Positions 1 to 58,200 of a stretch of DNA of 64,000 bases are shown in pieces. Positions within the stretch are counted from its first letter, which is position 1. Each line of letters starts with the position of its first letter. The notes under the pieces are model-generated. The model saw nothing but the letters and a program-made list of their open reading frames with translations, made no database searches and had not been told where the DNA came from. Origin of the DNA: Taxawa tesnikishii (nom. ined.) (Eukaryota; Ascomycota; Dothideomycetes; Dothideales); the NCBI GenBank assembly GCA_030247885.1, contig JAPDRO010000027.1, forward strand, positions 124,001-188,000, given 5' to 3'. A program made the position numbers and the translations under genes.

Positions 1-698
1 CACATCCTCGCCATCTCCATCGCAGTCTCAAACATCTCCTCCGGCTTGGCTACAGCATCCACGATCCCGTCCTCAAGCGCTTGCTCGCCCGTCCACCTAT
101 GCGCCTCCAACAGCATTTTGCGTGCAATCTGAGGGCGCAGCTTGAGTCTGGGCAAGGCGCCGATACCGGGGAAGTGCAGGCCTAGGTTTACGGGCGGCAT
201 GGAGAGAAAACCGCGGGATGAGTTCATAACACGATAGTCGTGCGCGAGTGCGAACGGGCAAGCGCCGCCAAAGGTGTGGCCGGTCAGCAGCGCGATGGTC
301 GGGTAGGGAAAGTCGAGGATTGTGGCTAACAGAGGGTAGAAACCGTCGCTATTTGCGAACGGATTTGTGTCTGATTCATCTAGCTCGAGGCCCTGCGTAC
401 GGACAATGTCAGTTGCTATGTGACTTGTCCGGTGCTGAAGGTGATCATGGCGGTCCGAACAAAGGTGTTCATGAGCTTACAGTACACCAGAATTTAGCAT
501 CGTTGCCTTTTGTAATCACAGCCCCTCGGCATTGGGACCGAGCAGCTTCTGGATTGAGTGAAAGGCCTTGATCAGTTTTTGGCAGTAGGCAGAGTTGAGT
601 CTGTTCTCTGGCGCTTTCCGCATGGTGATGACGAAGATCTGGCCATAACGATCGATGGCGAGGTCGTTGTCGGCAAGGATTGAAGCAGGATTGGCCAT
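1..698 (-). CDS. Enoyl-CoA hydratase/isomerase (crotonase) family protein, 3' part outside window
   Basis: Partial gene: ATG at 698, exon 1 481..698, intron 393..480 (GTAAGC...GCAG), exon 2 from 392 running off the left edge. The family hydrates or isomerises enoyl-CoA in fatty-acid oxidation, usually in peroxisomes or mitochondria. The protein shows the APENRLN start of the crotonase fold, then FWCTGLELDE after the splice, TGHTFGGACPFALAHDYRVM (the oxyanion-hole region) and PPVNLGLHFPG, as in fungal delta3,delta2-enoyl-CoA isomerase-like members. Exon 1 changes frame at the C4/G4 run at 522-525: NAEG is followed in the next frame by AVITKGNDAKFWC. One more G would restore the family sequence, so I read it as an assembly error rather than a pseudogene. 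The peroxisomal signal and exact substrate cannot be judged because the C-terminus is missing. Confidence 0.88.
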
Positions 699-2490
699 TG
701 TTGGCTGTCTTCGGAAGCGAGCTCAGCCCATAGTGGGAGGTCGTCAATGTCCACAACAGAGAGGATATAACAACAACAACAGCAAGGCTGAGTGCAGAGG
801 GGTTCGGGGAAGAGATGCGGGGAAGAGGAGGAACCTCGGGATTGGGGCGTACGATTCGTCAAAATGGAAACGTGATACTGATGCATTTAATATGAAATTT
901 TTGGCCTTGTCTGTTCCAGTGGCATGGCACTTGACTACGAATTTACTGAAATCAAGAGATTGCAGGTTCGATCATTGCCGCGGTCATATTTTCGTTTGTA
1001 GAACTCGTCTCATGGAACCGGCATCAAGCCGAAATCGTGGGATGAATCGATTGCTAGGTAGCGATGCGCTTAGGTACTCATCGGGCATCATCGTATATAT
1101 AACATAAAATATTCCATCTTGGAATAGAGTACTTATACTTGTCTAAGTCAAACTTGCGTTAGACTCTCGCAAGCTGTTATATAGTCGCATACAGCGCGTG
1201 TAAACACAATAAACAGCGTTCTACAGGCCGCAAAGAACTTCCATCTATGGCCTAGGTGGCCTCGGCTTTCGATGAATCTGTAATGTGGTTCGTCATGCTG
1301 CTTCCATGTATCAGCGACAGTGTCTTATTCTTCCGTCTGTAAGCATGAGAGCTGGCTTCAAAACGCCGATCGGTCTGCTCCTGCTCTCTTGCGAGCACCT
1401 GGTCAGGATGAGCTGGAAGTCCAAGAAGAAGGCCCCTGCCTGCCACAAGAGTTGAATATGCACAACGCCGTGGTTGCTTTCCTGTTTTTGTACCGCGAAA
1501 CCCACAACACAACGCTCAGCCCAACGATAAGAGCCCAAGCGACCCGCATCTGAAAACAAGTGCGTAATCTTCTGTCAATGGCGGTTTCTGTTGATCGGGC
1601 ATGTGATTTGTCCTCGAGGAACCAGAGAGACATGCGGCGTGCAATAGCCCTATGTGGGTGCACGTGAGGTAGCTCGTGACAAAAACCACGATTTGTACGC
1701 TAGACAGCTTCACGAATGATTAGAACTGACTCGCATGGCTAGACAAAGGGTTCTCAACGAATAGCATGGATCACCTAACGTTCAGACAAGAGCAAGCGCT
1801 AGCAGCTTAGGTCATGGAAGAACCAAAATCGTTACGCGTGAAAGACTAGCGTACTATGTGGCAAGATAGGAGCAATCTATTGCATCTGTGTAGATACGGT
1901 AGCTTTAACGTCCAAGGCGCAAGCGATTTGCCCCTCGTGACGAGCTGTAACGAAGGAGCGACAAGAAATCTAATGCGATCGATCTAGAGGAACTAGGACA
2001 TCGTCCTGGTTTTAGGACGAAGGATGTGCTCGCGTGGCCCACAATGACATGAAGATCAGAAAGCCGCACTACCAGGCTGCGGGTCGAGCTGTAGAGGTGA
2101 CTTGCCAATTGGGAAAGAGTGCAGGTTCTGCTGCGCAGAGGAATGTACTGTACGCACTGCTGAAGGTAGGAACCTCATTCCATAATATGCCAACTGTTTA
2201 CCGGCTTGGGAAGCACAGAATAGAGATTTAGGGTGTTCACTTGTAGTATAGCTATGGTGGCGATGCTAAAGTACAGGTGAAATGAAGCAGTCTTTCTCTC
2301 TCCCTTCCGACTTAATACATATACCCTCTCCATCGTAACCTTGGCCTGCCGCTTTTGAGTCAGGTCTTCTATGCAGCCAAGCAGGCATGTTTCAGCGCTT
2401 CTTGACCGCACGATCAATGCCATCCGGACATTGATATAGCAACTCTGGCAGTGTGCATAACTATATCTGAGACTAGACTACATGCCTGAC
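699..2490. other. Intergenic region with no gene seen
   Basis: About 1.8 kb between the start of the crotonase gene and the 3' end of the EDC4-like gene. Only short ORFs on both strands occur, without recognisable domains or plausible splice chains. A short minus-strand ORF near 1552 begins with a hydrophobic stretch but lacks other support. Part of the region must hold the crotonase promoter. Confidence 0.5.
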
Positions 2491-5400
2491 TCACGCGGTC
2501 AGGGTCTTGATCTCGCCAATCTGTCTCGCAAGCGCAGAGAGCTTGCGCAGAGCTGGGTCGCCGGGGTACTTTTCGGCAATCTGCATGTAGGCGCCCTGCA
2601 TCCTCTGCTGCAGCACGTCGACAATCTTAGGCGCGACTTCGAAGATCTCAGGATCCTGGAGGTCGGGACGTGAGCGAATGAGCGAGAGGGGAGAAGAGCT
2701 TAGGATACGACGTACCTTGAGGTCCATGGTGCCGATGATGATGCCAAGCCACTCGAGACGCTCGTGGATGTTCTTCTCGAAGGATGCAGTAAGGGCAATG
2801 GAGACGGAGAGCGTCACGAGTGGAGACAACCTGGTCAGGTACTGTGGATTGACACGGACAAAAACTTGTCAAAGAGATCGCCCTGGCGAGGAGATTGGAG
2901 CCACTGTGGATGAGTTAGCTATCTTCAAGCAGTCAAGCAACAGAAAAGATACACACAGCAATGGTTGCTTCCTCGTACTTTCCGTCGGTCATAAGCTGGG
3001 TGACGGTCTGCACTTCGAGATCCTCTTGCGACGGAGCGGCGGGCTGCGAGCGAACAGAAGCAGCCGATTTGTCGGAAGCCTCGCGAGCTGCGTTGCTTGC
3101 GGCAATTTGGCTTTGCAGCTGCAGAATCTGCTCCTGGAAGGCAGCTTGACCAGCAGACACGGCCTGGATAATATCGGACATGCCGCGTGCAAGGTCGGTA
3201 AGCTCTGCGATCTTGGCGTTATCGCTGAGGCGCCGTGCTTCGACCTGGCGAAGCTGCTCGGCGAAGCGGCGCTCGGCATCGGCAGCGGACTTTTGTGTGC
3301 TACTCGAGAGATTGGTGACCGCCGGCAACACGAGGTTGCGCACGGCCGCGTTCACAGTCTGGTCGATGTGCGCAGTAAGCTTGCTAGCAGTCTGTTCGCT
3401 GATAGAGCGGTGTACATCCTTGTCCTGCATGGCACGTGGGACGGCGGAGGCAAGCGCCTGTGAGAACGTATGTTCGATAGTGGAGTTGATCTGACTGGTG
3501 AGGGCAGGCAGAAGAGTTTGTTGGATGCCGGCAGTGATCATCTTCGACAGACTCTTCTCAACATTGTCGGTGAGCGTACTAGAGACCAGGCGCAGGACTG
3601 CATCCTGCTTGGCCGCGGCTGCTGCATCCTGCACACGTCGGTCATCATCGAAGTGCTTGTACAGTGCGTCGAGCTCTTTCGAGAATATGCCGCTCATGCT
3701 TGATGTGACATCCTTGGTAATGCCATCGATATCCGACTTGTTGAAGCCAGAAGCGGCGGCAGGAGATTTTGCTCGCGTCTCAACAACCGGAATTGATGCA
3801 TTGACTTGAACAGGCTCCGGCTCAGGGATGGAGGGCTTCGCGCTCTGTGCGGCCATAGCGTATGAGGCAGGAGTGATGATTGGTGGGTTGACAGCAGGTT
3901 GGCTTGCGGCCGGTGCAGGCTCCTCAGCTGCAGCTTGCTTCTTCTTGCTAGCTTTGTTTGTGCCGTTGACAGCGCTGATTTCTGGCTTGTCTGCGCGAGA
4001 CAGAACAGACTTCGTGGTTTCGCTCTTTTGGCGCGCCGGTGTCTGCGGTGCAGAAGTGTCTTCAGTAATTGTAGAGCGAACCTTCGCAGGAGTTTCGCCG
4101 GTGACGTCACTAGCTACTGGAGCAGGTGGCACGCGAATGTCGTGAACAGAGATCACACCAGCATTCTCAGCATCAACAGGGTGCTGCACCTTGTTGTCCG
4201 GACCCCAGCCCAAATCGGTACGGTTGATCTTGAGGCAAGTAACGCCCTTCGAGTGCATAGCATACAATTCGAAGAGTAATTCCTCCTCCGAGTCGGACGG
4301 GTTGGCAGGCGTCTTGAGCATTTCCACGCTGCGCAGCTCTCCCTTCTGCGCGAAGGAATATTCACGAATACCGCTCATGATAGCGGTCGACTCCGGACGA
4401 GGCAGATGCGTGTCTTGGGCCGCCACCATCGTGACGTAGCGCGCTTGATCCAAGTTGGGAATGTGGTAGCGCGGTGCCGACAGATGAATGAAGTAGATGG
4501 AGTTGCGCGTGGGGTGGCCGAGAGCAATGATACCAGACTTGGGGTGGTAAGCAATGCTGCAGATGGCATCGGAGTCCTTGTCGTGCGGGAAGTGCAATTC
4601 TTGCACAGGCTTGCCGAGACCGAGATCCCACAGCTGCAGGATGTGGTTCTGCTTCAGACCCACGATCAAGTAGCGGAGAGCAACGCCCTTAACGCATGGT
4701 CTCTCCTTGTCCACAAACATCACAGAGGATGGTGTAGCTTTCTCTGCAGGGCTTGTTGTGATGAGCGTCATCAGTGGAGCCTTCTGCTCAATAGAGTTGC
4801 GTTTGCCGGGGAACGCGTCGCGAGCCCTCTCAGCAATCTCGCGAATGTCCCAGAACTTGATACGGCCGCTCTTGTCAAGAGAGACGAGCAGGCTGTCATC
4901 CTCACTGAACGTGAAGTCTTTGCCAGCCTTGCCCGTCACGATCTTGAAAGAGTGGTCTTGGAGAAACTTCTCGTGATCCACAATGCGAGTCTTCGGATCC
5001 GTATACGACGCCGAGCGTGCGACCAGTGGTGCAATGATATAGATGGATTTGCCCCTGGAGATACCGAAGAACTCAACGTGGCGAGAACTCATCTTCGCGC
5101 GAGTCTTGACTGGGCTACCGGAAGTGTTATCGTCTTGCACTGGAACAGGTGGGAGTACGAAACCTTGCGACTCTGGATTGCTGTCGACGAACTCCTCTCC
5201 AGTCACGGATTTGCTGAAGGTAGTCCAGTAGACGGAGCCGTTGACTCCGGTGCCCAAGACAGATTCGGTATCCTTGACGGAGCTGCTCGTGGTGCACATC
5301 TGGAGATTGAAGATGCGCTCACTGCCCGAACGGAAGACACTCTTGTCGCGACCTGTCTCCTGCTGAATCACGCGGAAGCCACTGTTCTTGGGCAGAGCGT

Positions 5401-6781
5401 ATACGATGTGGTGTTGCGATGCAGTGACCAGGGAGCGGTCAATCTGGTCGAAGTCCTTCTTCATCCTGGCAATGTCGACGAGACTGTCCGAGCGGAAAGA
5501 GGAAGGTATACTCGTCTTGTTAATCTGGATAGAGACAAACGGCCTCATTGGGAAGTTGTAAACCAGCACCTTGCCGCCATCCTCCTTGGGGGTCTCTTCG
5601 AGATCGGCGCTCTCCCAACTATCAGCGACATCTTCCTCTGTGTTTCCGGTTGCAGCTGCTGCAGCGGCGGTCGATTGGCCTGCGCTAGCCCCTCTGCCTG
5701 TGCCAGCACTTCCTCGAGTTGTTTGTCAACCCTCTCGCCTACTCCACTGAGGGCTTCAGCAACGCTTTGGTTCTTTGGTTCAGCGCCGATTCCCATAAGC
5801 GACTCGATCTTGCTACGACCATCGGGAAGTGGGGATGGTGCAGGCGATGCCAGCTTGCGGGCCTTCGCAGCTGGGGCAGCGTCAGCATCACCGTTGGCGC
5901 CAGAAGCTGCATCGGCAGCCGCCTTAGAAGTAGGTTTGGGTGTAAGCTTTCGAGGAGAAGAAGCAGAAAGCGCCTCAAAGGGGTTGACGTAAGTGAAGAT
6001 GCCGGGCTTGCTGGCAGGTTGTGGTGGACCTTCAAACGACGGTGTGGCTTCACGCGACTCGGTTGTGCCGAAGAGTCTGGCAGGTGTAGCTTCCCTTGAT
6101 GTTCTTGACGGCTCTACCTTTGCCTTTTCCAATTCCGAAGCAAGAATTGTGTCCGCAAGATCCTCCGCGAGCTTCTCTACAGAAGCGCTGGGCTGTTGTG
6201 GCTGCGGGGCCTGCAGTGGCTCGCTAGAAGCTTGCTTAGGGCGATTCAGAAGGTTGAGAAGAAAGTCTTGTGGATTGCCCACAGGAGACGTGACGCCTTC
6301 CTGTCTGAAAGGCGCGGAAGCAAGAGGCAACTGCATAGTTGCTGATGGAGATGGCTTGTGGTGAAACGAAGCGACTACATCAGAAGCTGAGACGCCGCGT
6401 GCTGAACCGCTTGGGACAGCAGATGGGGTCGACTGGCCCAGGGAAGGGCTGCGTGGGGCATTGATGTTCTGCATGGCGGCTAGCGGGCTTGAGGTGCTCG
6501 CAGAGACATTGGTGTTGAACTTCAGCAGGTTGAGGAGGTTATTCGCCTTTGGGTCTGGTGCGGGTGTGTTGTGTGCTGGGCTCATGATGGCCGACGAATG
6601 GACTGGGTTCGGAGTTTGGAGGGAGGCGAAAAGAGCGGCGAGGATACAGAAGGCGGTTGGTAAGAATTCGAGGATGGCTGTGCCCAGATTGATGGCTGCT
6701 GTTGAGCGCTGGACGACTGGGGGCGCCCTCATTCGCAGTTGGGCTCTTCAAGCGACTAAACAGCTCCTGCAGGTCCGCCAT
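2491..6781 (-). CDS. EDC4/Ge-1-like WD40 scaffold of mRNA decapping
   Basis: Exons 2957..6781, 2716..2903 and 2491..2655; introns 2904..2956 and 2656..2715 (60 bp, in frame). About 1,390 aa. The start MADLQELFSRLK at 6781 is typical of fungal Ge-1 proteins. The first 400 residues are low complexity and carry NNLLNLLKF. A WD40 region opens with VLVYNFPMRPFVSIQI near residue 405 and includes FWDIREIA. A Pro/Ala-rich linker follows, then a long helical C-terminal domain (FSKELDALYKHFDDDRRVQ, later FEKNIHERLEWLG). Ge-1 proteins hold Dcp1/Dcp2 in cytoplasmic P-bodies through this helical tail. Four frame breaks (runs at 6719-6723, 6615-6617, 5689-5692 and 2860-2864) each need one added base. With them the protein reads through without gaps. 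Identification rests on domain order and motifs. Confidence 0.9.
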
Positions 6782-7767
6782 CGTGAGCGAGTCGGCGCGT
6801 CGGACGCGCAGAAGTCGTGTTGCTGCCGCTTGAGTGGTGAATTGGTGAAGGATGGGTGGAATGCGGTAAGCTGGACGGAGAACCACTGAATACTGTGGCG
6901 GGTGTGAAGTGAAGGAAGGTTAAGGTAGAGACGTAAAGACACCAAATATCAGAAGGAAGAAGGATGAAAGCTGCGAAGGTGAAGCAGCTCAATCGACGGC
7001 AGTGCCAAGACTCCACATCCGCACCGCGACGCAATGACGTTTACCGAAATCGATTCTATCCAATTCCAACGATAGATACAGTGCTGCAACGGTCGGGCAT
7101 CAGAACTGTTGAACAGATTGGACCTGTCTAAGATACCTCCTCAAGTTGTGTTTGACCCAACCGAACTGCTCGGCTCTGCGGCACCTCGAAATCCCGCATA
7201 TCAAATATCCGATACACAATGCAACTGTCTATCTCAGATCGAGGAGTGTCCGAAGCACGGACACGCTCGTCTCCCTATGGTCTAGACGTAGCCATGTCTA
7301 TATGATGTACGATCCACCATTTAGTACGTGGTGGCGGACAAAACAACGTGAGACGTCAGTGTTCTTAACAGGCCGTCAGCGTCACAGGTCGGCCACTTGT
7401 TTCCAGACGGACATGGGAGCAGGCACAACTAAAGCATACCGTTCCAGCCCCTTCTTACGCCTCCAAAAGCCTGCCTTTCCATATACTGTTTTGCCAAATC
7501 GGGGGACATCGCTTGGAAACACCTGCATGATTAAGTCTCGAAGGCCGCAATTTTGGACCGCCCAAGGAACATATCCACATGTGACATGCTTGTCTTCAGT
7601 CGAGCTGGGAAGGTAAATCTTTGCATGCTCTAGTTATTCTGATTTGAACTGCTCCACTGAAAACTTTGTTGCTTAGCTGGTCAAGCTGGGTATCTGTCCG
7701 TAACGCCACCATTTCCTAGAAGAAGAAGAAGAAGAAGAAGAAGAAGAAAAATCCACCGGGTCATTCC
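6782..7767. promoter_or_regulatory. Intergenic: EDC4-like promoter and DCAF4-like 3' flank
   Basis: No gene recognised. The right part, just past the stop of the next gene, holds the GAA-type microsatellite. The left part is the presumed promoter and 5' UTR of the EDC4-like gene. No specific factor site is claimed. Confidence 0.45.
7718..7748. repeat. (AGA)n trinucleotide microsatellite
   Basis: About ten uninterrupted AGA units just downstream of the DCAF4-like stop codon. It is a purine-rich tract in the 3' flank and likely length-polymorphic. Confidence 0.95.
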
Positions 7768-9701: not shown

Positions 9702-9726
9702 GACCGGAATCTCCTCGGTGGAGGGC

Positions 9727-9761
9727 TGCTTTCTGCTTTCTGCTTTCTGCTTTCTGCTTTC
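9727..9761. repeat. Heptamer minisatellite (TGCTTTC)x5
   Basis: Five exact copies of a 7-bp unit, pyrimidine-rich on the plus strand, in the 5' leader/promoter of the DCAF4-like gene. Confidence 0.95.
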
Positions 9762-12524: not shown

Positions 12525-14405
12525 TCATTCTGCCACGTAATCTAAGATGTCGAAGCTCAACCCTCGCGCGATTTTGAGCACGTGTTCCCATCCATAGTTG
12601 ACTTTCCACCTTCCACCCGGCTCCAAGGCGTCTCCGCCCACAGTACCGCTTCTTAGCAACAGCCGCAGCGATCCCAGGGTAGCTACCTGGCGGAAACGTT
12701 AGTATGCTGATGCAACTCTGAACTTTGAGAGCAGAAAAAGTGTGTCGAAGTGTCCAACAAGCCGTCCGCTGCATGGAAGACCCTTCAAAGATATCGCCCG
12801 TAAAGAGTGATAGTCGACTGGGTGGTCGTTCGCGATGTCCTCGAGCATTGCTACGAGGAGGCATCGTAACAGTCATTTGGTGGCCAGGCCGACAGCCTTC
12901 TAAGATCACCACATACCTGTGTGTAGATATCCGACGTAGGCACGACGTCGTGTGGGAGAATTGCGTGCAGGATGGCGAACATGCGGTCCAGCGTGAAGGC
13001 AGATGGTGACAGCAGATGCCGCGGTATTTTCCTGTGTTTCGACGGACGAGAGGCGCTTTTTGCAGTGCCACCGCCCTTCTTACGGCGTTTGCGCTCACTG
13101 GCCTTCATAAAGAAAACAGAATCCTGACGGGCGGGGTTGTAGGAGGCGAGGTAGGCGGCGCAGAGAAGCCATTGTGAGTAGTACGGCAGGTCGTGGCTTA
13201 TAGCACCAGCCGTAGCCGCCGACATGGCGGTAGTGGTCGCTGTCGGCTCGATCACGTTGTCGAGCAGATATCCTTCATCTTGGAACAGCTTCCTCTGCGC
13301 GACTAGCAGCCTACTGAAGTCTCGCGTGCCGAACGCGCCGTCAACGATGGGTTGAACAAAGGGCCTCCATATCCTCTCGGCCACGGAACGGAAACTAACG
13401 ATGTCACGAGCGGAGCCTTTGGCCAAGGAGTCCCAAACAGCGGCGCAGAAGCGGCTCCATAGCCATGCGTTGTCCGCGGCTTCGAGCTCGGGAGAATAGT
13501 CGAGTGAAGGCGAGGGCGTGCGGGGAAGATGTTGGGTGGCGTGGTGGAAAGGATTGCAAGAGCCTGATCCCGGTTGTATGGCGGGAAGTAGAGGTGCGGC
13601 ACTCCTGATGCATGCAGGAAGCGCGGGGGCGGGTGTGTGACAACAAGCACGAGCGTCAAACCGGGGATCTGCGAGGATTGTGAGTTGTTGTTGTTGCTGG
13701 CAGTTGTAGCGAGGAGCGATGACTGAAGGCGGTCGTTGCTGTGATTTCGAGCGAAGCCTACAGGGGATGGCTGCGATGTGTTTGCTTTGTCTTGTGATAG
13801 GTCACGGTGTTGCAAAGGCGGGCAGACGGTACGAGACGAGAGTGGAAGGTACTCACCAGACTGCCCAGACGCGCCAGTGCAGGCAGCAAAGTGGGCGGTG
13901 CCTCGCATTGCTCATCGACGCCGTCAAGGACCAAGACGAACTGCTCTGTACCCTGCAAGGCACGCTGTAGCTCGTTGCAGAAGGAGCTCAGATTCTCGCA
14001 TCGGGGATGGGAGTATGGCTGTCGGTCGAGGCCGGAATCGGCATCGGCATCGGCATCGGCATCGGGATTGGGATCGGGATCAATGGCGCGCAGACAAGCG
14101 GCTACGGTGCGCTCCAGGAGGTGCCTTCCAGTGATGCTTTCTTTGCAGGCGACGATGGCGTGTGGAAGCTGCACTGCCTTCAAGTAATCCTTCAGCACGC
14201 CGGTCTTGCCGGTCGCTTCAGGCCCGTGGACGACGACTGTTGGCGGACAGGGCAGTCGCGGCTGGTTTCACGTCAGTCGCATGTCGTGGCGTGCCATGTG
14301 CTCGCTCTTGCCATGTTGGCTGCTGCTGCTGCTGCTGCTGCTACTTACAGCAAGCACACCTGCCAGCTGTCGGACCTGGCTTTCTCGACATGGCCACGCA
14401 TCCAT
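12525..14405 (-). CDS. ORC5: Origin recognition complex subunit 5
   Basis: Exons 14349..14405, 13857..14261, 12917..13668 and 12525..12686; three introns (87, 188 and 230 bp). About 460 aa. Orc5 is an AAA+ subunit of the complex that marks replication origins and loads MCM. Exon 1 gives MDAWPCRESQVRQL, the ORC5 start. Exon 2 gives Walker A GPEATGKT (residues 32-39) and Walker B-like VLVLDGVDE. Exon 3 holds the lid (DIVSFRSVAERIWRPF) and the diagnostic LPYYSQWLLCAAYLASYNPA followed by HLLSPSAFTLDRMFAILHAI. The last exon ends FDILDYVAE. One frame break lies at the C3 run 13514-13516, where one added C restores the family sequence. An Asp-Ala/Asp-Pro tract encoded by a hexamer repeat sits after Walker A. 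The gene is head to head with TAD3, 100 bp away. Confidence 0.92.
14034..14081. repeat. Imperfect hexamer repeat inside ORC5 (codes DA/DP tract)
   Basis: About eight 6-bp units, GGCATC then GGGATC/GGGATT on the plus strand. They encode alternating Asp-Ala and Asp-Pro on the minus strand, within Orc5 exon 2. The tract is acidic and likely a length-variable loop between the Walker motifs. Confidence 0.9.
14319..14342. repeat. (GCT)8 microsatellite in ORC5 intron 1
   Basis: Eight trinucleotide units lying immediately after the GTAAGT donor of ORC5 intron 1 (donor at 14348 on the minus strand). Expansion would alter intron length but not coding. Confidence 0.93.
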
Positions 14406-17075: not shown

Positions 17076-17910
17076 CTACACCGGCAGGTTGAACTTCTTA
17101 CCCTGCATGACTCTACACGCATCTATCAGTAAAACGTTCTCTTGGCGCCAAAACCTCTGGTATTTACGCACTTTGTGTAGTAAATGTAAAAGAAGTCGGA
17201 ATAGAGAACCGTCTGAATGACGCCAGCAACCACGGGAATAAGATCGAACCACCCCTCAACCAAGTACCGATAGATCCAGTTCGGGATGTACAGCGCCCTG
17301 TACGCGCCAAGGGCCGCAATGTAGTGCACAGTAATTGTCTCCGCCTCGCCCGTCCTTTGCAGCATAAACAGCTGCGGCAGAATGGCTACGGATTCCAGCC
17401 AAATGCTAAATGCCCATAGCATCTCCGATGGCGTGTACTTGTACGGGAACACTATACCCATGAAAGCCGCACCAGCAAGTAGGTACTGCACCTTGAAGGT
17501 ATCGAGGTTGGGATCGTGGGTAGGCTTGTAGTCGTTCAGCATCAGGTAGATCGTGTAGGCGGAGGAGCCGATGAAGAGTATCTTAAAGGTGGTATTCCAG
17601 AGGGATCTTGTGGGATCGGTCCAAAGCAGATCAAGGTACCGGGTTATGTAGACGATGAGGTAGAGGAATTGCGATTTGAACGATATGCCGGATGCGCTCT
17701 GCAGGGGCGTTCAGTGGATGAAGGGCAGGAAAGGGATGAGATGGAATGGTCGTACGCTTGAGGTCTTCATCTTGTGTAGAAGGATGAGGATGGATAGCAG
17801 ATGCGACAAGTCGCCTGTATAGACCCAGCATGTCAGTTCGTCGTGTCTCCGACCAACAGAGTGCAGCGACTCGGCTCTCCCAAGCATACCTAATATCCTA
17901 AAAGATTCAT
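17076..17910 (-). CDS. ERD2: ER lumen protein-retaining receptor (H/KDEL receptor)
   Basis: Exons 17890..17910, 17756..17814, 17170..17698 and 17076..17110; about 214 aa, the normal length. Erd2 is a seven-helix membrane protein that returns escaped HDEL proteins from Golgi to ER. Diagnostic segments are LGDLSHLLSILILLHK, SCSGISFKSQ-like SASGISFKSQFLY, YLDL, IGSSAYTIYLM, WLESVAILPQLFMLQRTGEAE, YRALYIPNWIYRY and the C-terminal GKKFNLPV. Exon 1 needs one extra T in the T4 run (17900-17903) to read MNLFRILG. The last intron is unclear: the exon ends AAGT|GCGTAA, so a GC-AG intron (17111..17169) gives TKFMQGKKFNLPV. A GT donor one dinucleotide on (with acceptor at 17103) gives the less typical TKCGKKFNLPV. 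Divergent from the ENGase gene. Confidence 0.93.
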
Positions 17911-18399: not shown

Positions 18400-20780
18400 A
18401 TGGGCTGGAAGGACATCCTGCGTCCAATTCGTGATCGCCTGCGGGACAACCTGCCCTCGCACAGAACTCCAGACAAGAACGAGGAGGCGCGACGCCGCGA
18501 ACAACAGCAGAAAGATGTATTGAGGGGCTTTGCGTACTTCTACACCTTCGAGGAGATCGAGAAATGGACTCCAGAAGACGTCGATCCGTTGCAGTGCGCC
18601 AACACGCCACTGCTCCCTCGGCCATCCCAAATCGCCCCGGGCGCACCTCCGGAGAAGGATGGCAAAGCCGGCATCACGATTATACATGACTTTGCAGGCA
18701 ACTACCACTCTTACGAAGACTGCCACGGCACACAAACCGACTGTCCGAGTTACAGCTGCGAGTATCTGCAGTTTGTCGATTCCTTCGTCTACTTCTCACA
18801 TAAATTGGTCTGTGCACCACCGCCTTCGCAGACAAACACACTCCATCGCAACGGTGTCCGATCGTTAGGTACGTTCATAGTCGAACCACAAACTTCTGGT
18901 ATCGAAAAGATGCTTGAGGCTCGCCAAGATACCACTACCGGCGCCTGGGAGTACCCTCTCGCTCGCACCCTCACCCAAATGGCTCATGTCTACGGCTTCG
19001 ACGGCTGGCTCCTGAACATTGAGAAGACTTTCCCGGTCAAGGATTGGAATTCTCGGCACCTCGAAGGCTTCTTGTGCCAGCTACGCGCTGCCCTCGGCCA
19101 GGGAACGTCATCTGGTAAGTCCGAGGCCCTGTGGACAGTTGAGATGGCATTTAATCGTGACTTAGGTACGATGCACTTACCGACAAGAACACTGTGAATT
19201 ACCAGAACGGACTTACTCCCCGCAATGTCCGCTTCGCGAAGGCAGCAGGTTCGGTGCTGACGAATTATGCCTGGAGCGCTAACATGCTTGCGGAAGCACA
19301 GCTATTCGGTAAGTTACAGGGGATGCCGCCACCAACCATCGCATTTGGCATAGACGTTTGGGCCCAGAATCGACCTCTATCCGATCCACCACGGAAGACC
19401 TTTCCCGAAGATGGGGGCGGCGGCACAGGAACAGGCTGTGCTGTGAAGGCTTGCGCCGCGGTCGGATTCACCGCAGGGATCTTTGCGCCGGCCTGGACGT
19501 ACGAGCATTTTCCAAACCATGGAAGGGACGTTGAGCGTGCAATGTGGGAAGGTGTTGCATTGCCTGACGCGCTGCAATGCGGCTGCGATACGCCTGATAC
19601 ACACAGCAAGGCGCCTTATCAAGATATGCCGATTGCGAGATTTGCTCGGGAATCTGCTGCCGGCTCTGGGAGGTTCTTTTATACCAACTTTGAGAGGGCT
19701 TTCCAAGACCGCCAGGACTGCGATGGAAGGTCACAGTTCGCTCACGTAGGCGCACAAGCCGTGCTGCCGCTCATAGATGATCCAAACAGAAAAGCAGAAC
19801 AAGTAGCTCGCGATTGGATATCAGAGTTTGACAAGACACGTGGTGGGATACACGTTCACTGCATCGAACTCCGCTCCAACCCGCCCCGAGCAGCTTTCCT
19901 ATTGAAGACGTTCGCACCGCCTTCCGGCTCCATGCACACGTACCCACCCGACCACCTGTTTGAAGTCAGAGACAAGGCTGTCAGACTGTACAACCTCTCC
20001 ATTCACGACACCACCGACCTAGACTTCTCTATCACGTACACTAAAAGAGCGACACCGCGCGCACTGGATCTCTCGATACACCTAGGATGTCCGCACCCGC
20101 CAATCATCCTACCGAGCCGTGCTTGCAACCGCGAAACTCTGGTCGTTCCGCTGGACGATCCATCTCAAGACCGGTTGTACCGGCCGATCGAAAAGGCACC
20201 TGAGGACTTGCTGCACTTAGATACGAAGGACAAGTTCATCTCGCATATCAGCGTCATGTGCGGAGGTCTTTTACCCAAGAGCCAACTGCAGCCTGGCACC
20301 GTGACCGAACTCTTCGAGATACACGAGCTGTGCATCAAGAAGCGGACCCGTAGCTCGCCACACAACTCTCTTACAAACTTACGTCTGGTGCGTCGAGCGG
20401 GCGACTGTATGTCCCACACGCGTCTTGCATGGAACTACCTCGCAGACGAAACCCAGCGCGGGAGGAGTGGGATGCCGTATAGCGACTGCACAGGGCCTTT
20501 CTCGTACTTTCGGGTCTACGTGGGTGAGGTACTGATCGGTCGTGTCTACGCTTTGGCGTGCGTTGTGCCGGAGAAGGAAACCTGGAGACTTGAAAGGGGT
20601 GGAGAAGTGAAAGTAAGGATCGAGGGATACGGGTTTGATGGCAAGGTGCTGTGTGAGATGGAACACGTGTTCGGTTGTACGGAGCAGGATCTCGATGCCG
20701 GAAGAAGCGAGAGTGACGAGTGGCAGATGGTGCGGCGATCCGGGTCCCTGTACGCAGAGAAGATGCCGCAGTCTTCATGA
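18400..20780 (+). CDS. Cytosolic endo-beta-N-acetylglucosaminidase (GH85)
   Basis: Exons 18400..19114 and 19166..20780, 51-bp intron; 776 aa. GH85 enzymes cut between the two core GlcNAc residues of N-glycans. The cytosolic form releases free oligosaccharides from misfolded glycoproteins. No signal peptide is seen at the start, consistent with the cytosolic ENGase type. The catalytic segment GFDGWLLNIEKTF places the Asn/Glu pair at N206 and E208. IWYDALTDKNTVNYQNGL after the splice and TNYAW are further GH85 signatures, with the C-terminal beta domains to residue 776. Exon 1 has a frame break at CC 19098-19099: one added C gives LGPGNVIWYDA and an in-phase splice. The shorter downstream ORF starting MNYQNG is therefore not a separate gene. 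Confidence 0.9.
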
Positions 20781-22582: not shown

Positions 22583-23617
22583 CTAACGACGTTCATACCT
22601 GTCAGCGCCGCGGTCCTCGTAACCACGGCTACCACCACGAGCGGCTGGGTCGGCACCAGCGCCGCCAGCGCCACCAGCGCCACCGTAGCCGCCAGCTGGA
22701 GCGTCACGAGGTGGGCGGTCATAGCCGTAGCCTCCACGGCGGTCTTCACCACGGCTGCTGTAGCGGTCTTCGCGACCTCCACCGTATCCACGGTACTCGT
22801 CACGGTCACGACGTCCTCCGTAACCACGGTCGTCGTAGCGGTCGCGGTGGCCGCGGCTTCCGCCATAGTCGTCACGTCTGCCACCGTATCCGCGATCATC
22901 GTAGCGGTCTCTGTAGCGGTCACCTCCTCCGTAGCCACGGCGAGGGCGGTCATCTAGACAATCATCAGTGTTCATAGCAATCAAGCTTGATCGAAAGACT
23001 AACCTCTTTTCGGGGGCCGAAGTACTTGCCAGGCGTGGGAGTCCTAGGTTTGGCGCGACGAGCCTTCTCGATGCTCAAGGTGCGACCCTCATAGACTTCG
23101 CCCTGAAGACCGTTCTTCGCAGCGTCGGCTTGCTCGGCAGTGACCATCTTGACGAAACCGAAACCGCGCGACTCCTTGGTGTGAGGATCGCGCATAATGT
23201 TGCACTTCTCAACTTCTCCGTATTTCTCGAAGAGACGCTGGATCTCATCCTCAGACAGGGATGGGTGGATGCCAGTGACGAACAGGTTGGAGCCAGGGTT
23301 GATGGATTCATCGTCTCCGCGAGACGCTGGTGGCGGGCCGCTGTTGTTTATCAGAATGAGGCGTCCTACAATAGTTGTTCTACATGCTCTTACCGGTCAT
23401 CGCGTCCGTTTGGAGAAGCGCTTCTGATTCTGATGTCGCCGTCGCGGTCGGCACGAGGAGAGCGTGAGCGCTCACGAGGGTAGGCCGGCTCATCTATTGA
23501 ACGCGTCACACGTCAGCTACTGCGCTCTCCACGTTCTATCGGCAAAGGAGTCCGATCGTGAGGACGACGCATACCGGCGTAGCCGCGCTGGTCGTTCTCG
23601 TAGTCGACGTCGGCCAT
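22583..23617 (-). CDS. RRM plus RGG/Tyr-Gly-rich RNA-binding protein (Tra2-like architecture)
   Basis: Exons 23575..23617, 23394..23493, 23004..23340 and 22583..22953; 283 aa. It probably binds pre-mRNA in splicing or mRNP assembly. The N-terminus is short and RS-like (PRERSRSPRADRD). A single RRM has RNP2 NLFVTGI and RNP1 RGFGFVKM, and ends at ARRAKPRTPTPGKYFGP. The C-terminal third is a tandem RYDDRGYGGRRD-type repeat with RGG-like boxes, expected to drive RNA binding and phase separation. The last splice is in frame only if one base is added in the G5 (23012-23016) or T4 (23007-23010) run, giving GPPKR or GPRKR then DDRPRRGYGG. Otherwise the exon enters a meaningless Thr-Ala-Val-rich frame. 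Introns are 50, 53 and 81 bp. Confidence 0.88.
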
Positions 23618-24293: not shown

Positions 24294-25830
24294 ATGACGT
24301 CCAACGGGCCTTACTACCAGGCCATCCCGGCACCGGATCACCAGCTGGACAAGGATGACTTTACGCTGTCACAGAATCTCATGCAGTACACGCAGTCCAC
24401 CACCTATCCGGAGCCGTCGACCGACTACAACCAACAGCAACAGCATTCCAGCGAGGCCGCTCAGCTTCATGACCTCGTAGAAGCTGCAACAAGTGCAGCA
24501 GCCCAAGAGCGCGCTCGTCAAGAACAGTACGCACACTATCCAGCCGATGGCGCGCCGCACCACGACCACGTCCAACGCATCCAGCCAGAGCTCGACACCC
24601 ATACTCCCCTCACTAGCGCTCCAGAAGACCAGGCGCTCGAAGCTCTGCTGCGTAGTGGGGTGCAGTAGGCACGAAACGCAAACGCTCGAACTCGCCAAAT
24701 GCGCAGGAAGGTGCGCAGCAGCAGGTGCAATCAGCAGCTTCTACGAGGTCTAAGAGACAGAAGAAGACGGCTGGAGGACGCAACACGGATGACAACGGTG
24801 GCGGTACATACAACGCACTCGATTCTCCTCATCATCTCGAGGCGCGCGCAGCCGGTGTGCATTCAGCTGCTGCTCTATTTCGCCCGGCGAGTGAGAAGTC
24901 CAAGAAGTACACCCGACCACCCATGTCAAAACTCTTCAACTCCCTCGAACTATCTCCTGAGAATTTCCTGTACCTTCAGGCAGCAGCAAAGAAGTTCATG
25001 CTAGACCCAGAGCATCCGGAGAGGCAGGAGTGTGTCGGAAATAGGGACAAAGCGGATCATGATATGGTGAAGCTGAAGATGATCAACACCGTGAGGACAT
25101 TCTTGAAAGATGAAGGTCATGGGGAGAAATACTTTGGTGTGAACGCGCCTCCGCCTGGCGAAGGAGAAAATGGCACACCGGGGCTGCAGCGGCGCTGGGT
25201 GTGGCCGCGCGACGAGACCAAGATCATCACCTTGTGCACGCCTTTGCTTCGTCGCATGCTCACGAACGAACGGCAAAGACAGTACGCTTCTGACACTCGC
25301 AAGCCGGGAAGGGCAGCCAAAGGGGATATGCAGACGGAAGAAGAGCACAACGAACCTCAGCCGGAGGATGCTCAGGTAACATGTTGCACATGCAGTCTCA
25401 ACATAGAATGGCATACTAATTTACTGTTTAGAACTTTCCAAGCAATCCGTACGATCAACGCTGGGGTTACACTACCGGCATCCAGATCTACATGCTTGAC
25501 GGCCACACTGGGCAGCCTGTCCACGATCGTATCGATATGCCTCTGGACAACAACGTTAACTGGGACTTCTTGAGTGACGTGATTGACCGCCATGGCAGCA
25601 CCCACAACAGTGCTCGTCAAACTCCCGATGGCTCCGTGGGTGACCTGGCAGAGAAATTCGATATCAAAGTACTCGCTTCTGCTGGCCTGATGTATGTCTC
25701 CAGCGAGAACGATTGGCGACACGCTCTTGAAGAAGTTCATCAAACAATCTGGCTGGAAGGTGTTGTAAAGGTGATTGTTCACGTCAAACCTCCGCCACCC
25801 GCTGAAGAAACGCCGCGAGACCAGCCTTGA
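24294..25830 (+). CDS. Conserved fungal protein of unknown function
   Basis: Exons 24294..25375 and 25432..25830, 56-bp intron; 493 aa. Not recognised by function. The N-terminal 120 residues are Gln/His-rich. A basic segment (GTKRKRSNSP, STRSKRQKK) looks like a nuclear localisation signal. It is followed by a conserved-looking globular block (PMSKLFNSLELSPENFLYLQ, DPEHPERQECVGNRDKAD, RRMLTNERQRQY) and a C-terminal domain with IQIYMLDGHTGQP and a closing VVKVIVHVKPP strand. These blocks resemble Pezizomycotina proteins annotated only as hypothetical. A G4 run at 24657-24660 breaks the frame: one added G joins ALLRSGG to AVGTKRKRS. Without it the gene would appear as two ORFs. A nuclear regulatory role is inference. 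Confidence 0.8.
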
Positions 25831-28937: not shown

Positions 28938-29392
28938 CTACAATCCTCTCAGAGAAGTCCCCTTTGTCTCAGCAGTTCCATCAATCTCACTGGTCTCGGG
29001 CCCGTCTGCTGCGCTGAACGCCTCGACGGCTGCAGCCACATTCTCGATCTGTGACGGTGCAGCAAGATATCCCAACTCGAGCACAACAAGGCTCAGTTCA
29101 GCTTGCTGTTGATAGGGTATTGCCATTTGGAGTTGAAGCTGAAGGGTTTCAGGAAACCGATGTGCTCAAGTTGGTATTCATTCTTTCGCGAAATGCGAGC
29201 CGTGTTTTCGTTATGCATCTTGCTGACAGATCTCCATTCAGAACGCATTAGCAGCATCGGGGAGCGTACACCCGCGTCAAGAATACACACAAGAAATGCG
29301 AGGAACCGGGGAGAATCAAATCTGCTCACGCCCCAGTCACGTCCAAACGCGGTGATGTCGGTTGGCTTGGCGGAACGCGACCTCTCATACAA
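28938..29392 (-). CDS. Small protein of unknown function
   Basis: About 150 aa, ATG 29392, stop 28938. Not recognised. The reading frame gives TDITAFGRDWGVSRFDSPRF, a hydrophobic FLAFLVCILDAG, then EWRSVSKMHNENTARI and KNEYQLEHIGF. Near 29148-29153 the sensible sequence moves to the next frame (LQLQLQMAIPYQQQAELSLV, VVLELGYLAAPS), as if one base were missing in CC or AAA. Amphipathic and protein-like on both sides of the break, with a good hydrophobic pattern, so I favour a real gene, possibly with an upstream exon. It is tail to tail with the glycoside hydrolase (70 bp between stops). Confidence 0.45.
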
Positions 29393-36385: not shown

Positions 36386-39077
36386 TCAAGCCCTCCCATC
36401 CCGAACGCCACGTGCAATTACCCATGCACTCAAACCGCCCTCAAGACTCCTAAAGTAAGAGCTTAGGGGCATATTTGACCCCTGCTTCTTGCACCACTCA
36501 TCCAGCAGCGCGCGTCCGAACCGTACGGCCTGCAGCGGTCCCGTATCCGCGCCGATCGGCAGTGTGAACCCGCCTGCATACTTGCCAGGTTCAGGACCGA
36601 CACCTTCGTCTGCGGTGTGAACCTCAGTCGCCGCTCGCCAGATTGCCGGATATTCATGCATGAGAACGTCGAGCCGCAGCTTTGCATTCGCGTCGGCGGA
36701 AGAGGATTTGAGAGTGTTCCACGCATCCCTCAATCCGCTTCCGGTCTTCGTCGCCGCGCAAGCCTCGATGATGCGTGAGTTGTACACGACGCCAAGGTGG
36801 CATACGAGGCCGTAAAGATGCGGGTAGGGTGTCGTCAATCGTTTGACGAAAGCGTAGAAGCTGTGCAGCGTGCTCCAGGAATTGAGGCAGTTGGACAGTT
36901 GTGGAGGGTTGCGCGATACGTAGGCAAGCTCGTCACAGTAGAAGGCCAGTATGAATGTGAGAAAGCTCTCTACGGCGGCGATGGCGGCTAAGTCGCGTTC
37001 TTTTTGATTTCGTGGTCGCTGGCGAGGTGTTTGACCTTTCTGCCTAGGGTGATGAATCGCGTCTTCTCCTCTTCCCAGGCTTGTGTTTGTTGTGTCCTCA
37101 CACCTGAGGAGGGAGAGGGCCGTATAGTGCTGTTCTCTCGCGCCAAGTGTGAGCTAGTGGCAGAAGTGTGATTGGCGGCTGGTGTGTGGGCTGCTGCTGA
37201 TGGTGAGTTCCCAACGCTGTCAGTAGACTCAACCCGCTGCATGGCAATAGAGGTACGAAGATCCCTTCGTGCTGTCGGAGTGACTTGTTGCGATTGAGCT
37301 CTTTGCGAGTTTGTCAGGGTCGGGGATTTGAATGCGGGTTCAAGTGGGGTGCTCGAGTTCCTTTCGAGTTTGATGCTGTCGGGTCCCTTCTTTCGTTTCG
37401 CTTGTGGCTGGGATGTCGGATCCTCCTCATCTGTTCTCGAACGCTTAGTCGTACCAGATGACGTGATAGAAGAAGCGCGTTCTCGCTCCAACGTCTTGTA
37501 TGCACCGCTGCTTGCGGGTACTTTTCGTGCGATGCCTTTGATGGGCTCTTCCTTGGTGTCAACGCTGCGCTTTAGAGCCTTTCCGGCAAGTCTGGGCGCC
37601 GTTTTTTCAGACACGCTGTTTCTTTCCACATGAGCATCATCCCGAGCCTCAGCTTCGTACCGAGCCATCTTGTCTTTCCAATGCTGCGGCGAAGGGCGCA
37701 TTCCCAGAAGCCGCTTAACGGCTGTTCGAAGGGTCTTCGGGATCTTCAATGTGACAACAAGCGTCTCCCTCTCATCCTGCGAGTTCACCGGTCGGTCACC
37801 AGTGATTCTTCTAGAGTCATCCACTACGTTCGGTAACTCCTTTTTCAATGGAACAGGCGCTTCCCCAGGAGAATGCGCCTTATTTTTATGTTCCTTTTGA
37901 GGGAGCTCTGCCTGCTTTGTAGAACGTGGGGAATGAGCGCTGGTCTGACCTTGTTCTTTTTCCTGTGGTGGGTTTTCCTTCTTGACCAGAACGTCCTCTG
38001 AAGACAGTTTATCCTGAACAGAATCCGTACTGTTTGAGACTACAGAATCGTGCTTGGAGTTGGATCTCTGCATGTCCACAATGGAAGGCTTTCCAGAGCT
38101 GGAAGAGCTGCCGGATGTAGAACGCTTGTGCGCACGCGCTTCTAATGCTGCAACAATTTTGGGTGGTAGCGTCGGCGAGAGACGTTCGGGAAGGTGGTGG
38201 AGGGGAGATAATCTGCTCGGCAGTTGTTGAAGAGGAGAAAGCTTGCTTGGTAAATCTCGCTTTTTGGGCGGAGAAGGCAATGGAGAAAGCGGAGGCGGTA
38301 AAGCGTTAGAGCGTGGAGTTGGAGACATGCGTGGCTTTTTAACCGGAACGGTGGGCTCTTCTTTCTTGCTCTGTGATGCAGAGGTTGGCTTGTCGGCATC
38401 CGCTTCCCTGATAAGCAATCAGCGGGTGTTCTCGTACCATCGCCCAAGTTTTGAACATACCTCTTGCGCTTCAAGACGTTTTGTGCAGAACTGTCCTTTG
38501 GTGTCTGTGAGACGGCCGGTGCCTCCTTTCGCACAGTGCCCTGCCGCTCCGAGGTCCTCTTCGACTCTTGCTCCTCCGTCTTGACCGCCTTCGCACGTGC
38601 ATTTTCCGTGGCTTGTGGTTCTGGAGTATTGTCCGCGCCACCTGCTTGTTTGTTCTTGTACGCCGCAAGACTGATCTTCTTCTTTGGTCCAACGTTAGGA
38701 GTACCTACGGCGCTTTGCGGTGCACTGCTCTTCACCGGAAGATGTTGTGGAGCCTCCTCCGTCCTCATCGACCGCTCGAGATAAATACAATTGGAGTGAG
38801 GTTCATGGTAGATCCAGGTCTGATATTGAATGTTCGGGTGTTCGCGACGATTGAAGGGGGTTTCACGGAGCCATTGCTCGGCCGACTGTTGGGAATAATG
38901 GTGGTATCTTGGCTCGTCTTGCGGGATGGTCTGTACATATGGCACATCTGGTAGGCATGTGCGCATGCGATCCACGGTAGCGTCGAGCTGTTTCAGTAGC
39001 TCCTTGTCCTCGGCGCTCAGATCTGGGTAATAATCCTGTGGGGCAACCTCGTCGGTACTCGCGATTGCAGAAGGCAT
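36386..39077 (-). CDS. Conserved, largely disordered protein of unknown function
   Basis: Exons 38461..39077 and 36386..38407, 53-bp intron; about 879 aa. Start MPSAIASTDE at 39077 (a further ATG at 39107 is possible). The N-terminal 100 residues look folded (DYYPDLSAEDKELLKQLDAT, CLPDVPYVQTIPQDEPRYHH). The middle is Ser/Pro/Lys-rich with repeated LSPLxxLPxRLSP units (PSKLSPLQQLPSRLSPLHHL). A short conserved strand-helix LVVTLKIPKTLRTAVKRLL follows. The C-terminal 230 residues are helical (FITLGRKVKHLA, VESFLTFILAFYCDELAYVS, WSTLHSFYAFVKR). The frame changes at the T5 run 37001-37005; one added base reads EIKKERDLAAIAAVESF and fuses what would otherwise be two genes. The pattern matches unnamed Pezizomycotina proteins; a nuclear role is inferred from basicity only. 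Confidence 0.8.
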
Positions 39078-41103: not shown

Positions 41104-42318
41104 TCAGAGTTCATCGTCTGTCTCCTCATCCTCATCCTCATTGATCCCAGTCTGCGACTGGTTTGCAGCAGGAGGAGACGGTTTCTTTGGCAGAAATCCA
41201 GCTCTCTGTAGATTCCTCCTCCCGAACGGTAATTCCCTCCTAGGTGGTGGCTCAATACCCTCTGATTCCGGCTCTGGCTGTGGCTCTGGAGTCTTCCTTC
41301 TAGCCTGAACTGTTTCGATCGCCTTGCCCTTATTTCCCACACCTCCTCTGGGTGCTTGAGAAGAGACAGGTGCGAGTGCAAAGCCATCTTCACTGCTGTC
41401 TTCATCCTCCGTTTCGTCCAGATCAGACTTCTCTGGAGTTTCCGCATCCCGCATCTGCTTTGCTATTTCCTCGTCGTCATCATCAACGTTCCGGTCATCC
41501 ACACCTATGCGATCCTCAACGTCATCCTCCGTGTCCATGGTTGCGCCGTTGGCTTTGCGTTTGCCTGCTCCGGACGCGCCGGCTTTCCGCTTGCCTGCGC
41601 TTGCTCGCGCGCTTTGAATTTGAGCAGCAGTCTTGGGGTCAACCTTTGCGTCAGATAGCAGCCTTTGCTGATCCCGTATCTTCAGCTTCTTCGTATTGAG
41701 AAGCTCCGCGAATTTCTGTAGAAGCTCGTTCTCGTGCTCTTTTTGGCCTTGACGAGATCGTCCAGTTCAGCAGAAAGCTTGGCCACAATGTCCTGTTGAG
41801 CGTGGACCGATGTCTGTAAATCATGAAGCCGAGTCCGGAGATCGTTTGCGTGCAAGGCAGCTAAGCCAGTCCATTCAAATAACTGTATCTCTTGGTCTTC
41901 ATCCTGGCTCAGTTTGATCTCTCCCAGGCGTTGCTGGACTGCTGGTTAATTTGCTTGTAAACACAACCGAACGCACAACTTACAGTAATGCCACTGATGT
42001 TCTTTCTGATGACTAGCGTGATCTGATCATCGACTGTAGCAACCAGCTCCACGTCCCGGATTGCATTGGACTCGTCTTTTTGCAGTAAAGCAAAAGCCAA
42101 AGTGTCTGACCATTCCGAATCAGATCCGCGATAGTTTGCTGCACGTAGACCGTTGATGTTTTTTGCGAGACAACGGCCACAAAAGGTGCTTCACCATCAG
42201 TACCTAAAAGTTGCAAATCAAGCGCAGCCGGACCGTTTTGGGTAGCGTTGATCAGTATGAATGCTTCGTCACTCGGCTGATCCGTCCGACGAACGCGTAG
42301 TATGTGTTGGGTTGGCAT
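41104..42318 (-). CDS. XRCC4/Lif1-like DNA ligase IV partner
   Basis: Exons 41984..42318 and about 41104..41938; about 390 aa. XRCC4/Lif1 stabilises DNA ligase IV in non-homologous end joining. The N-terminal head reads HILRVRRTD, FILINATQNGPAALDLQLLG, then GLRAANYRGSDSEW and ITLVIRKNISGIT. A coiled-coil stalk follows (QQRLGEIKLSQDE, LVKAKKEHENELLQKFAELL, KKLKIRDQQRLLSDAKVDP), then an acidic disordered tail with basic GKRKAG motifs. The order head, stalk, ligase-binding coil and tail is that of XRCC4. Frame breaks at the T6 run 42159-42164 and T5 run 41740-41744 each need one base. The splice after SGIT is in phase only if the donor is GGTAAGT rather than GTAAGT, a possible third missing base. 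Confidence 0.85.
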
Positions 42319-55287: not shown

Positions 55288-58200
55288 ATGTCACACCGGA
55301 AACGCAAGCTTGAAGACTTCGACCCGAACAAGAGCGACTCTGCAGACTCAGACTTCGACATACGCGCCCAAACACAGTCTACCCCTCGTTCTCGCAAGAA
55401 CAAGCTGTCTAAACCATTCAAGAACCGCTCTCGACCAGCGCCGAAGCGGAGGAGAGAGACCTACGCAGACAGCGAGGACGATATTGTTGACGACGACGAA
55501 GAGATAGACGAAAGCGAGAGATCGTTCCAGGAGGACTCTGCGTCTGAAGAAGAGGCGGAAGTAAACCCGAGGACAGGCCGTAAACAACGCAGGGCTACGA
55601 AGAAGGAAGTGAAGTACGAAGAGCCAAGTGAGGACGATATCGAGGAGCCTTCCGATTCGGACGAGCCTCAGATCTCACCCAAGAAGATCCAGCGAGGTCA
55701 GCGAAGTCAAAGAACCCAACGAGTTGAGTCGGTCCAGCCAAAGCAGACGCTCATTGTCAAACTCCACGTCCCATCGCTGTACAGGACGCATCCCATAGTA
55801 CATCCGACTACAGAAGAGATGCACAATACACGTACCACACGGTCAAGGACTGGCAGCAAGACTACAGCAACACGACCGACACCAGAGCGCCTCCTTGGTC
55901 AAAGGCGCAGTAGTCGCTTGTCGCACAATGACGAAGAACCACTTATAGCACTTACGGACTCCGGCAGACATGCGCAGGTCACACGTCCTGGAACCGCGAC
56001 GCCTGAGCCACCTTCCTCTCGGCCGACGCGAAGCAACAAGGGCTTGAAGCAGTTGCCAAGTACGGTATTCGAAGACTCACAAGAGGTGTCAAGGGAAGAT
56101 CTTGGCGCTGGTCCTGAAGACATCATCTCACAGCTGCAGCAGCATGCATCGCAGCTCGGAGCATTGACTGAAGCCGGGGCAAGCGACAGAGGCTCACCAA
56201 TCACATATGAAACACAAGCGGATACCGATGTTGATGCGCCGGGGAGGATATCCAGATGGATGAAGCCGCCGCGGAGGAGGCTGAAAATGCGGATGACGAC
56301 GATGATGACGACGAAGGTCCCATCAAGCGACGGGGCAGTCGAACGCTTAGGGTAAGTACCTTCTTTGCCATTCGCCTGACCATTAACGCTAACGGGTCGT
56401 CAAGTCTCGCACTAAACCGAGCAGTCCGGAAAAGCCACTGCGAAGATCCTTGCGATCGCGCAAGTCTGGTGGTGAACAGAGCAGTGACTTTGAGCCAGAG
56501 GCCGAAGGGAAATCTGGAGATGAGAATATCTCAAGCGACGACGAGCTTGCGAATCCGAAGCAGCGCACCCAGAGGAGTGATAACGACTCCAGCAGTGGCA
56601 CAGGTGGCCGCCGTTCAAGGCGGCTGGCAAGCAAGAGGGCACGCGACTCCCAACACTCCGATGAGGAGCTGGATCCGGATGAGATCGCAGACGAGGCAGC
56701 GGAGCTGGACGAAGACCGCCGACGCAACAAGCGGCCAAGAAGAAGTAGAAGAGATGAGGGTCTCTCGTTCGAGCCTAACCTACGCACTCGCAGCAAAAGA
56801 CCGGATTATCGCGTTTTCCGCCCAGAACTACTCATGCAAGACCAGGAAGAGGATGTTGCTGTTCCAAGTGCGTCGCAACAACGCCGCAAAGCTGCAGGTC
56901 CTTACAAGAGCCTCTTCTCAACTCTAGGACCTTTCGGTGGCGCTGGTGGCCCAGCACCGGTATTTGGCGGGCCGGAAGGTACAGGTGCAGCTGGCGGCGC
57001 TGATTCCGATAGCAGCGACGATGACCTGCAGCAAAAGCTTCCCCGTGGTGTTGGAGGTACAGTCGGAATGACACCTACATCAGCTGCCGCGCACAACTTC
57101 TTCCCGCAAACTCACAATGCAGATCCGACACAAACATCCGGCGCACCTGCGAACCTTGGGAAGGTCAAAGACAAGAAGGCTCTTGCCGATGCTGATCCAC
57201 TCGGTGTCGATCCCAACGTCAATTTTGACGGCGTGGGCGGCCTTAGCGACCACATCGATCGGCTCCAGGAAATGGTCGCATTGCCGCTGCTGTATCCAGA
57301 GGTGTTCCAGCGCTTTCACGTCACACCACCCCGTGGTGTCCTCTTCCACGGACCTCCGGGTACTGGTAAAACCTTGCTTGCTCGAGCACTCGCGTCAAGT
57401 GTGAGCTCGCATGGCAAAAAGGTTACTTTCTACATGCGGAAAGGTGCCGATGCATTAAGCAAATGGGTCGGTGAAGCAGAGCGACAGCTGCGACTCTTGT
57501 TTGAGGAGGCGAGAAAGAATCAGCCCAGCATCATCTTCTTCGATGAAATTGATGGCTTGGCGCCTGTCCGGTCGAGCAAGCAAGAGCAGATTCACGCTAG
57601 TATCGTCGCAACCCTTCTTGCGCTGATGGACGGCATGGATGGCAGAGGTCAGGTGATCGTCATCGGTGCCACCAATCGTCCTGACTCTGTTGATCCCGCC
57701 TTGCGACGTCCAGGCCGCTTCGACCGCGAGTTCTACTTTCCCCTTCCAAACCAGCAAGGTCGCAGAGCCATCATTGACATTCACACGAAAGGATGGGACC
57801 CACCGCTCAAGCCGGAATTCAAAGACAAATTGGCAGAGCTCACCAAAGGCTATGGCGGTGCAGACCTCCGCGCTCTCTGCACCGAAGCCGCGCTGAACGC
57901 CGTACAAGGCACATACCCGCAGATCTACTCCAATCCCAAAAAGCTTCTGATCGACCCTGAGAAGATCAAGGTTCTGGCTAAGGATTTCATGATCTCTATC
58001 AAGAAGATGGTGCCATCATCAGAGAGATCTGCTTCATCTGGTGCTGCTCCGCTCAAGAAGAGCATCGAGCCTCTACTCCGTGACGCTCTGAACGATATCA
58101 CGAGGGTGCTAGAAAACATACTTCCTCACGGAAAGAAACTCACCGCCTTGGAAGAGGCTATGTTCGATGACCGCGAGGATGAACGCGGGTTCGAAAAGGA

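Follow-up and report, generated by a model that had tools for sequence, protein, structure and literature searches.

Genes in a 64,000-base stretch of the Taxawa tesnikishii JES_119 genome (positions 124001-188000 of contig C20, which measures 456,699 bases; hereafter the window) are interrupted by frame breaks in which a single base appears to be missing next to a short run of identical bases. An initial annotation, made from the letters of the window, had listed 15 such sites and attributed them to under-called homopolymers. According to our analysis, the breaks are almost certainly sequencing errors, with run shortening by Nanopore sequencing kept in an uncorrected consensus and shifting the reading frames. 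Runs of identical bases would come out too short in Nanopore reads, a consensus without correction by accurate reads would retain these losses, and every loss so retained would shift a frame. Short-read polishing was presumably omitted or ineffective. Taxawa tesnikishii, a member of the Dothideales, was obtained from a soil crust in the desert (PMC11195213); by the account of its own paper, JAPDRO000000000 is the first genome of its genus (PMC11195213).

Comparison with an independent assembly

Pieces of three window genes were used as queries, and the best match of each was a 100% identical protein from a source labelled 'lgn', which we take to be Logan, an assembler of public read archives. 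The three proteins are P0001 (1,318 residues, from an 8,640-base contig) for the EDC4-like gene, P0121 (266 residues, from a 25,303-base contig) for ORC5, and P0241 (541 residues, from a 36,488-base contig) for the gene at 37001. Their source is probably a short-read-based assembly of Taxawa tesnikishii. Each protein was walked codon by codon along the window from its second residue, and six breaks were encountered, at 6719-6723, 6621-6623, 5689-5692, 13522-13525, 37001-37005 and 36479-36482. All six correspond to a missing base, with neither an extra base nor a substitution over the 2,122 residues compared. Five of them are on the list of 15; the break at 36479-36482 is a new, sixteenth one, and once it is taken into account the gene at 37001 ends in its proper C-terminus. 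A comparison with a close relative had been proposed as a check, and the proteins used here, identical at every compared residue, carry a continuous frame at 6/6 breaks covered. Because an independent assembly of the same fungus has the tested genes whole, we posit that the breaks are an error in the data and not biology.

Real one-base deletions, by which the affected genes would be decaying pseudogenes in this strain, would fit the fact that the frames are truly broken in the deposited sequence, and the independent assembly could represent another strain. This explanation is nevertheless highly improbable, since the independent assembly contains intact copies without a residue difference at all six sites covered, the compared stretches show run losses only and no substitutions, and ORC5 and the RNA polymerase beta subunit are among the genes hit. 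Both are held to be essential. If 'lgn' represents the same strain, real deletions are refuted at the six sites. The claim that essential genes are affected had already been made from the window; the break in ORC5 is seen in the P0121 walk.

Programmed -1 ribosomal frameshifting, in which the ribosome re-reads one base, is formally equal to a missing base and would account for the uniform direction of the shifts. A slippery-type heptamer (AAAAAAC) is present at the XRCC4-like break at 42159, and another (GGGTTTC) at 29150, one of three weaker candidate sites. Frameshifting deserves hardly any credence all the same: a heptamer lies near only one of the 16 strong sites (the 15 listed and the new one), where it is out of the zero frame by eye, a broad range of genes is affected, and the break is absent from the DNA of the independent assembly at 6/6 sites.

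Missing bases across the genome and their relation to run length

A codon-usage model was applied that includes introns and penalises a missing base as much as an extra one. It was trained on, and scanned, 264 kb consisting of the window and 20 samples of 10 kb from 18 contigs outside it. Its calls comprised 30 missing and 6 extra bases; 25 and 5 of these, respectively, came from the 200 kb outside the window, making the pattern genome-wide and not local. Within the window it made five missing-base calls and one of opposite sign as compared to 16 breaks known or listed, so that the model counts miss much. A score of at least 5 was reached by 25/36 calls, 24 of them losses, with closely paired calls having one common score. 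Implanted single-base losses were recovered in 135/150 cases and gains in 128/150. As the model is about equally sensitive to both, the asymmetry between missing and extra bases is not produced by the method; the implants were restricted to 41 stretches that the model called clean and kept a distance of 200 bases or more from either end, and the sensitivity therefore applies to the interior of long exons.

The claim that bases are always missing and never extra holds for all six directly tested breaks and has to be softened for the wider scan, where 6/36 calls were of the extra-base type. On visual inspection, three of these (L010 4775, L017 3795 and window position 23012) read as one or two losses: L010 4775, in an HSP20 gene and the sole strong extra-base call, reads as two losses, L017 3795 reads as one, and the call at 23012, in the RRM gene, had been made without the adjoining intron. 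The register at L017 6961 (COG4) is opposite and by eye reflects either a two-base loss at a TC repeat or the gain of one base. The remaining extra-base calls, L021 2686 and L015 9682, have low scores (1.5 and 0.6). At L017 8016-8112, the middle domain of COG4 carries on in another frame, which may be due to an intron or a further break.

Unrecognised introns can also produce apparent frame breaks. By eye, weak site 41983, in the XRCC4-like gene, reads as a 50-base phase-0 GT-AG intron (41934-41983), which was not called by the codon model, and introns adjoin the breaks in ENGase, ERD2 and the RRM gene. In ENGase, the Glyco_hydro_85 profile is matched at positions 6-133 and then, in the next frame, at 141-297; removal of an intron whose donor is poor (GTCATC) could bring the sequence back into frame with the loss of a few residues, and the site is therefore not decisive, yet the gap across the break comprises only 7 profile positions. 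Introns should moreover shift frames both ways, which is at odds with 30 missing versus 6 extra bases, and at six sites the protein crosses the break without losing a residue. We thus consider introns a very unlikely source of the breaks.

Outside the window, Pfam scans covered both flanks of 14 among the 25 losses called and one flank each of two breaks in L009, where the outcome was ambiguous. One domain bridges the break in 3/14 of the fully scanned calls, and in 11/14 no domain was found across it. The RNA polymerase beta subunit gene (L016 4785) is split, with Rpb2_6 matched at profile positions 1-328 and then at 332-373 in the other frame. The same division between frames is seen in DAHP synthase (4-189, then 193-351) as well as in a histidine phosphatase (4-258, then 282-354). 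The match tables of a TCP-1 gene (C1:528264) and an HSP70-like gene (C3:494622-494625) each display a single clean one-base register change, most other gaps being intron-like in length; of the two HSP70-like matches, one in addition contains an in-frame stop.

The losses depend on run length. Each of the six breaks located directly lies at a stretch of three to five identical bases in the assembly, and although the protein evidence locates a break only to within a few bases, the lost base probably belongs to the run itself. The true length was taken as the assembly run plus one at these six sites, with the affected runs assigned by hand in agreement with the protein walk. Over the 6,369 bases covered, losses then amount to 0/4,882 for runs of up to three bases, 1/29 for runs of four, 3/9 for runs of five and 2/3 for runs of six. 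The test genes had been picked for being broken, and the loss rate per kilobase is therefore biased upward, the length trend less so.

The 200 kb sampled outside the window also have few long runs of C or G, as judged against expected numbers from log-linear extrapolation. Runs of five number 31 versus 73 expected in coding and 54 versus 76 in noncoding sequence, and runs of at least six number 1 versus about 18 in coding and 5 versus about 21 in noncoding sequence. The window itself has 6 runs of at least six bases. Markov copies contain about 31 (order 1), 20 (order 2), 17 (order 3) and 10 (order 4), so that the depletion varies with the null model; the higher orders were fitted to the window sequence itself.

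Several observations weigh against sequencing error as the cause. Runs of five A or T show no depletion in the coding part of the same 200 kb (45 versus 42 expected) and only a mild one in its noncoding part (86 versus 102 expected), and 6/15 listed sites lie at A/T runs despite this. The loss at a run of only three (6621) and the possible two-base loss at the TC repeat (L017 6961) are atypical for long-homopolymer error. Short reads are only the probable basis of 'lgn', which on protein identity alone may represent another strain. Some calls of the codon model may be false positives. Same-species evidence covers five of the 15 listed sites, and it is conceivable, at exceedingly long odds, that one of the other ten, most likely XRCC4-like 42159, is a genomic shift bridged by -1 frameshifting. 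Finally, the genome paper describes a hybrid MaSuRCA assembly with Illumina reads, by which most such errors should have gone (PMC11195213).

The sequencing of JES_119, as far as it is set out in that paper, comprised 194.58x Nanopore coverage, base-called with guppy 3.4.4, and 25.38x Illumina coverage (PMC11195213). Nanopore reads were used for the deposited assembly, as homopolymer under-calling by this technology presupposes (PMC11195213). Completeness according to Benchmarking Universal Single-Copy Orthologs (BUSCO) is given as 97.4% in the Illumina row and 92.9% in the Nanopore row (PMC11195213). None of the words homopolymer, frameshift, indel, Pilon and Medaka occurs in the main text of the paper (PMC11195213); since a hybrid assembly is described there, we can only infer that the deposited sequence is unpolished. 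The proposal of under-called homopolymers is borne out by the continuous independent proteins, the heavy Nanopore coverage and the lower Nanopore BUSCO value. The assembly examined here consists of 29,367,862 bases in 34 contigs and the paper reports 29,383,553 bases in 38 scaffolds, a difference of 15.7 kb and four contigs (PMC11195213).

Break sites in the window

The breaks of the window are compiled in Table 1. In three-frame views, all 15 listed sites display by eye a frame change in the missing-base direction, and we regard these breaks as real. Same-species proteins support five of them (listed as 6719, 6615, 5689, 13514 and 37001), homologues three (ENGase, EDC4 2860 and ERD2) and the codon model two (24658 and 56244), while the other five (crotonase, RRM, glycoside hydrolase and both XRCC4-like sites) were identified from the reading frames alone. 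Two listed positions had to be moved by 6-9 bases, from 6615 to 6621-6623 and from 13514 to 13522-13525. Among the three weaker candidates, 41983 reads by eye as the intron described above, and 32822 is compatible with a missing base.

The main exon of ERD2 matches ER_lumen_recept. Its alignment with KDEL receptors begins at their residue 27, so that the N-terminus falls to the preceding exon, the one containing the break. What we take, by eye, to be the N-terminal motif of ERD2 lies in this broken exon. For the uncharacterised gene at 24657, no Pfam match was found on either side of the break.

Table 1. Frame breaks in the window, with the adjoining run as it stands in the assembly.
Feature	Position	Strand	Run in assembly	Evidence and remarks
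Crotonase-like gene	522..525	-	4	Frames by eye; weak ECH_1 match downstream (E 0.00012, below cut-off)
EDC4-like gene	2860..2864	-	5	Relative P0003 continues across, compared by eye
EDC4-like gene	5689..5692	-	4	P0001 reads through in one frame; codon model call
EDC4-like gene	6621..6623	-	3	P0001 walk; listed earlier as 6615
EDC4-like gene	6719..6723	-	5	P0001 walk
ORC5	13522..13525	-	4	P0121 walk; listed earlier as 13514; deposited model P0122 skips stretch
ERD2 (KDEL receptor), first exon	17900..17903	-	4	Frames by eye
ENGase (GH85)	19101..19103	+	3, just before intron	Placed by eye
RRM gene, 3' end of exon	23007..23016	-	4 and 5, before intron	Frames by eye; RRM_1 upstream
Uncharacterised gene	24657..24660	+	4	Codon model call at 24658; frames by eye
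MGH1-like/GH65-type glycoside hydrolase	26634..26638	+	5	Frames by eye; domain match downstream only
Gene at 37001, near C-terminus	36479..36482	-	4	P0241 walk; frames
Ebp1_C-like (Ell-binding) gene	37001..37005	-	5	P0241 walk; weak Ebp1_C downstream (E 2.6e-05, just below cut-off)
XRCC4-like gene	41740..41744	-	5	Frames by eye; weak XRCC4_CC (E 0.019)
XRCC4-like gene	42159..42164	-	6	Frames by eye
ATAD2-like AAA/bromodomain gene	56241..56244	+	4	Codon model call at 56244; AAA and sub-threshold bromodomain downstream

Consequences for the reference genome

Automated annotation had been predicted to suffer from the breaks, and this is seen in the deposited ORC5 model P0122 (H2203_009019, Taxawa tesnikishii), the one model on which annotation damage was checked. 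P0122 comprises 397 residues, as compared to 449 in the relative P0123. It joins approximately position 13854 to 13486 and so omits the break-bearing stretch that P0121 reads through. The model apparently skips 13486-13854 to avoid the frame break and is for this reason about 50 residues shorter than its relative.

Similar errors are known from other Nanopore assemblies. In the likewise fungal Drechmeria coniospora, run-length errors in Oxford Nanopore assemblies shift frames in conserved genes, and they were reported to be fixed by short-read polishing, with BUSCO under-reporting the damage (PMC7500977). In the account given there, run length was more often over-predicted, after long-read polishing (PMC7500977), in contrast to our six directly tested breaks, all of which are losses. 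Residual Nanopore homopolymer indels that shift frames in coding genes are also the subject of Homopolish, which differs from our study in being a correction method built on homologous genomes (PMC8011154). The breaks described here are thus an ordinary artefact of a kind already described in fungal and microbial Nanopore assemblies, and they involve no new biology.

The value of the finding lies in a quality warning on the Taxawa tesnikishii reference genome. The 4.5-point BUSCO gap in the genome paper (PMC11195213) is a sign of the same problem. Scaling the 25 calls per 200 kb outside the window to 29.4 Mb gives a rough figure of about 3,700 breaks genome-wide, a number that lacks the many breaks missed by the model but may contain false positives. 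At least one damaged gene model, P0122, is already present in public protein databases. Claims of gene loss, pseudogenes or domain loss in Taxawa tesnikishii that are derived from the current annotation are unsafe until the assembly has been polished.

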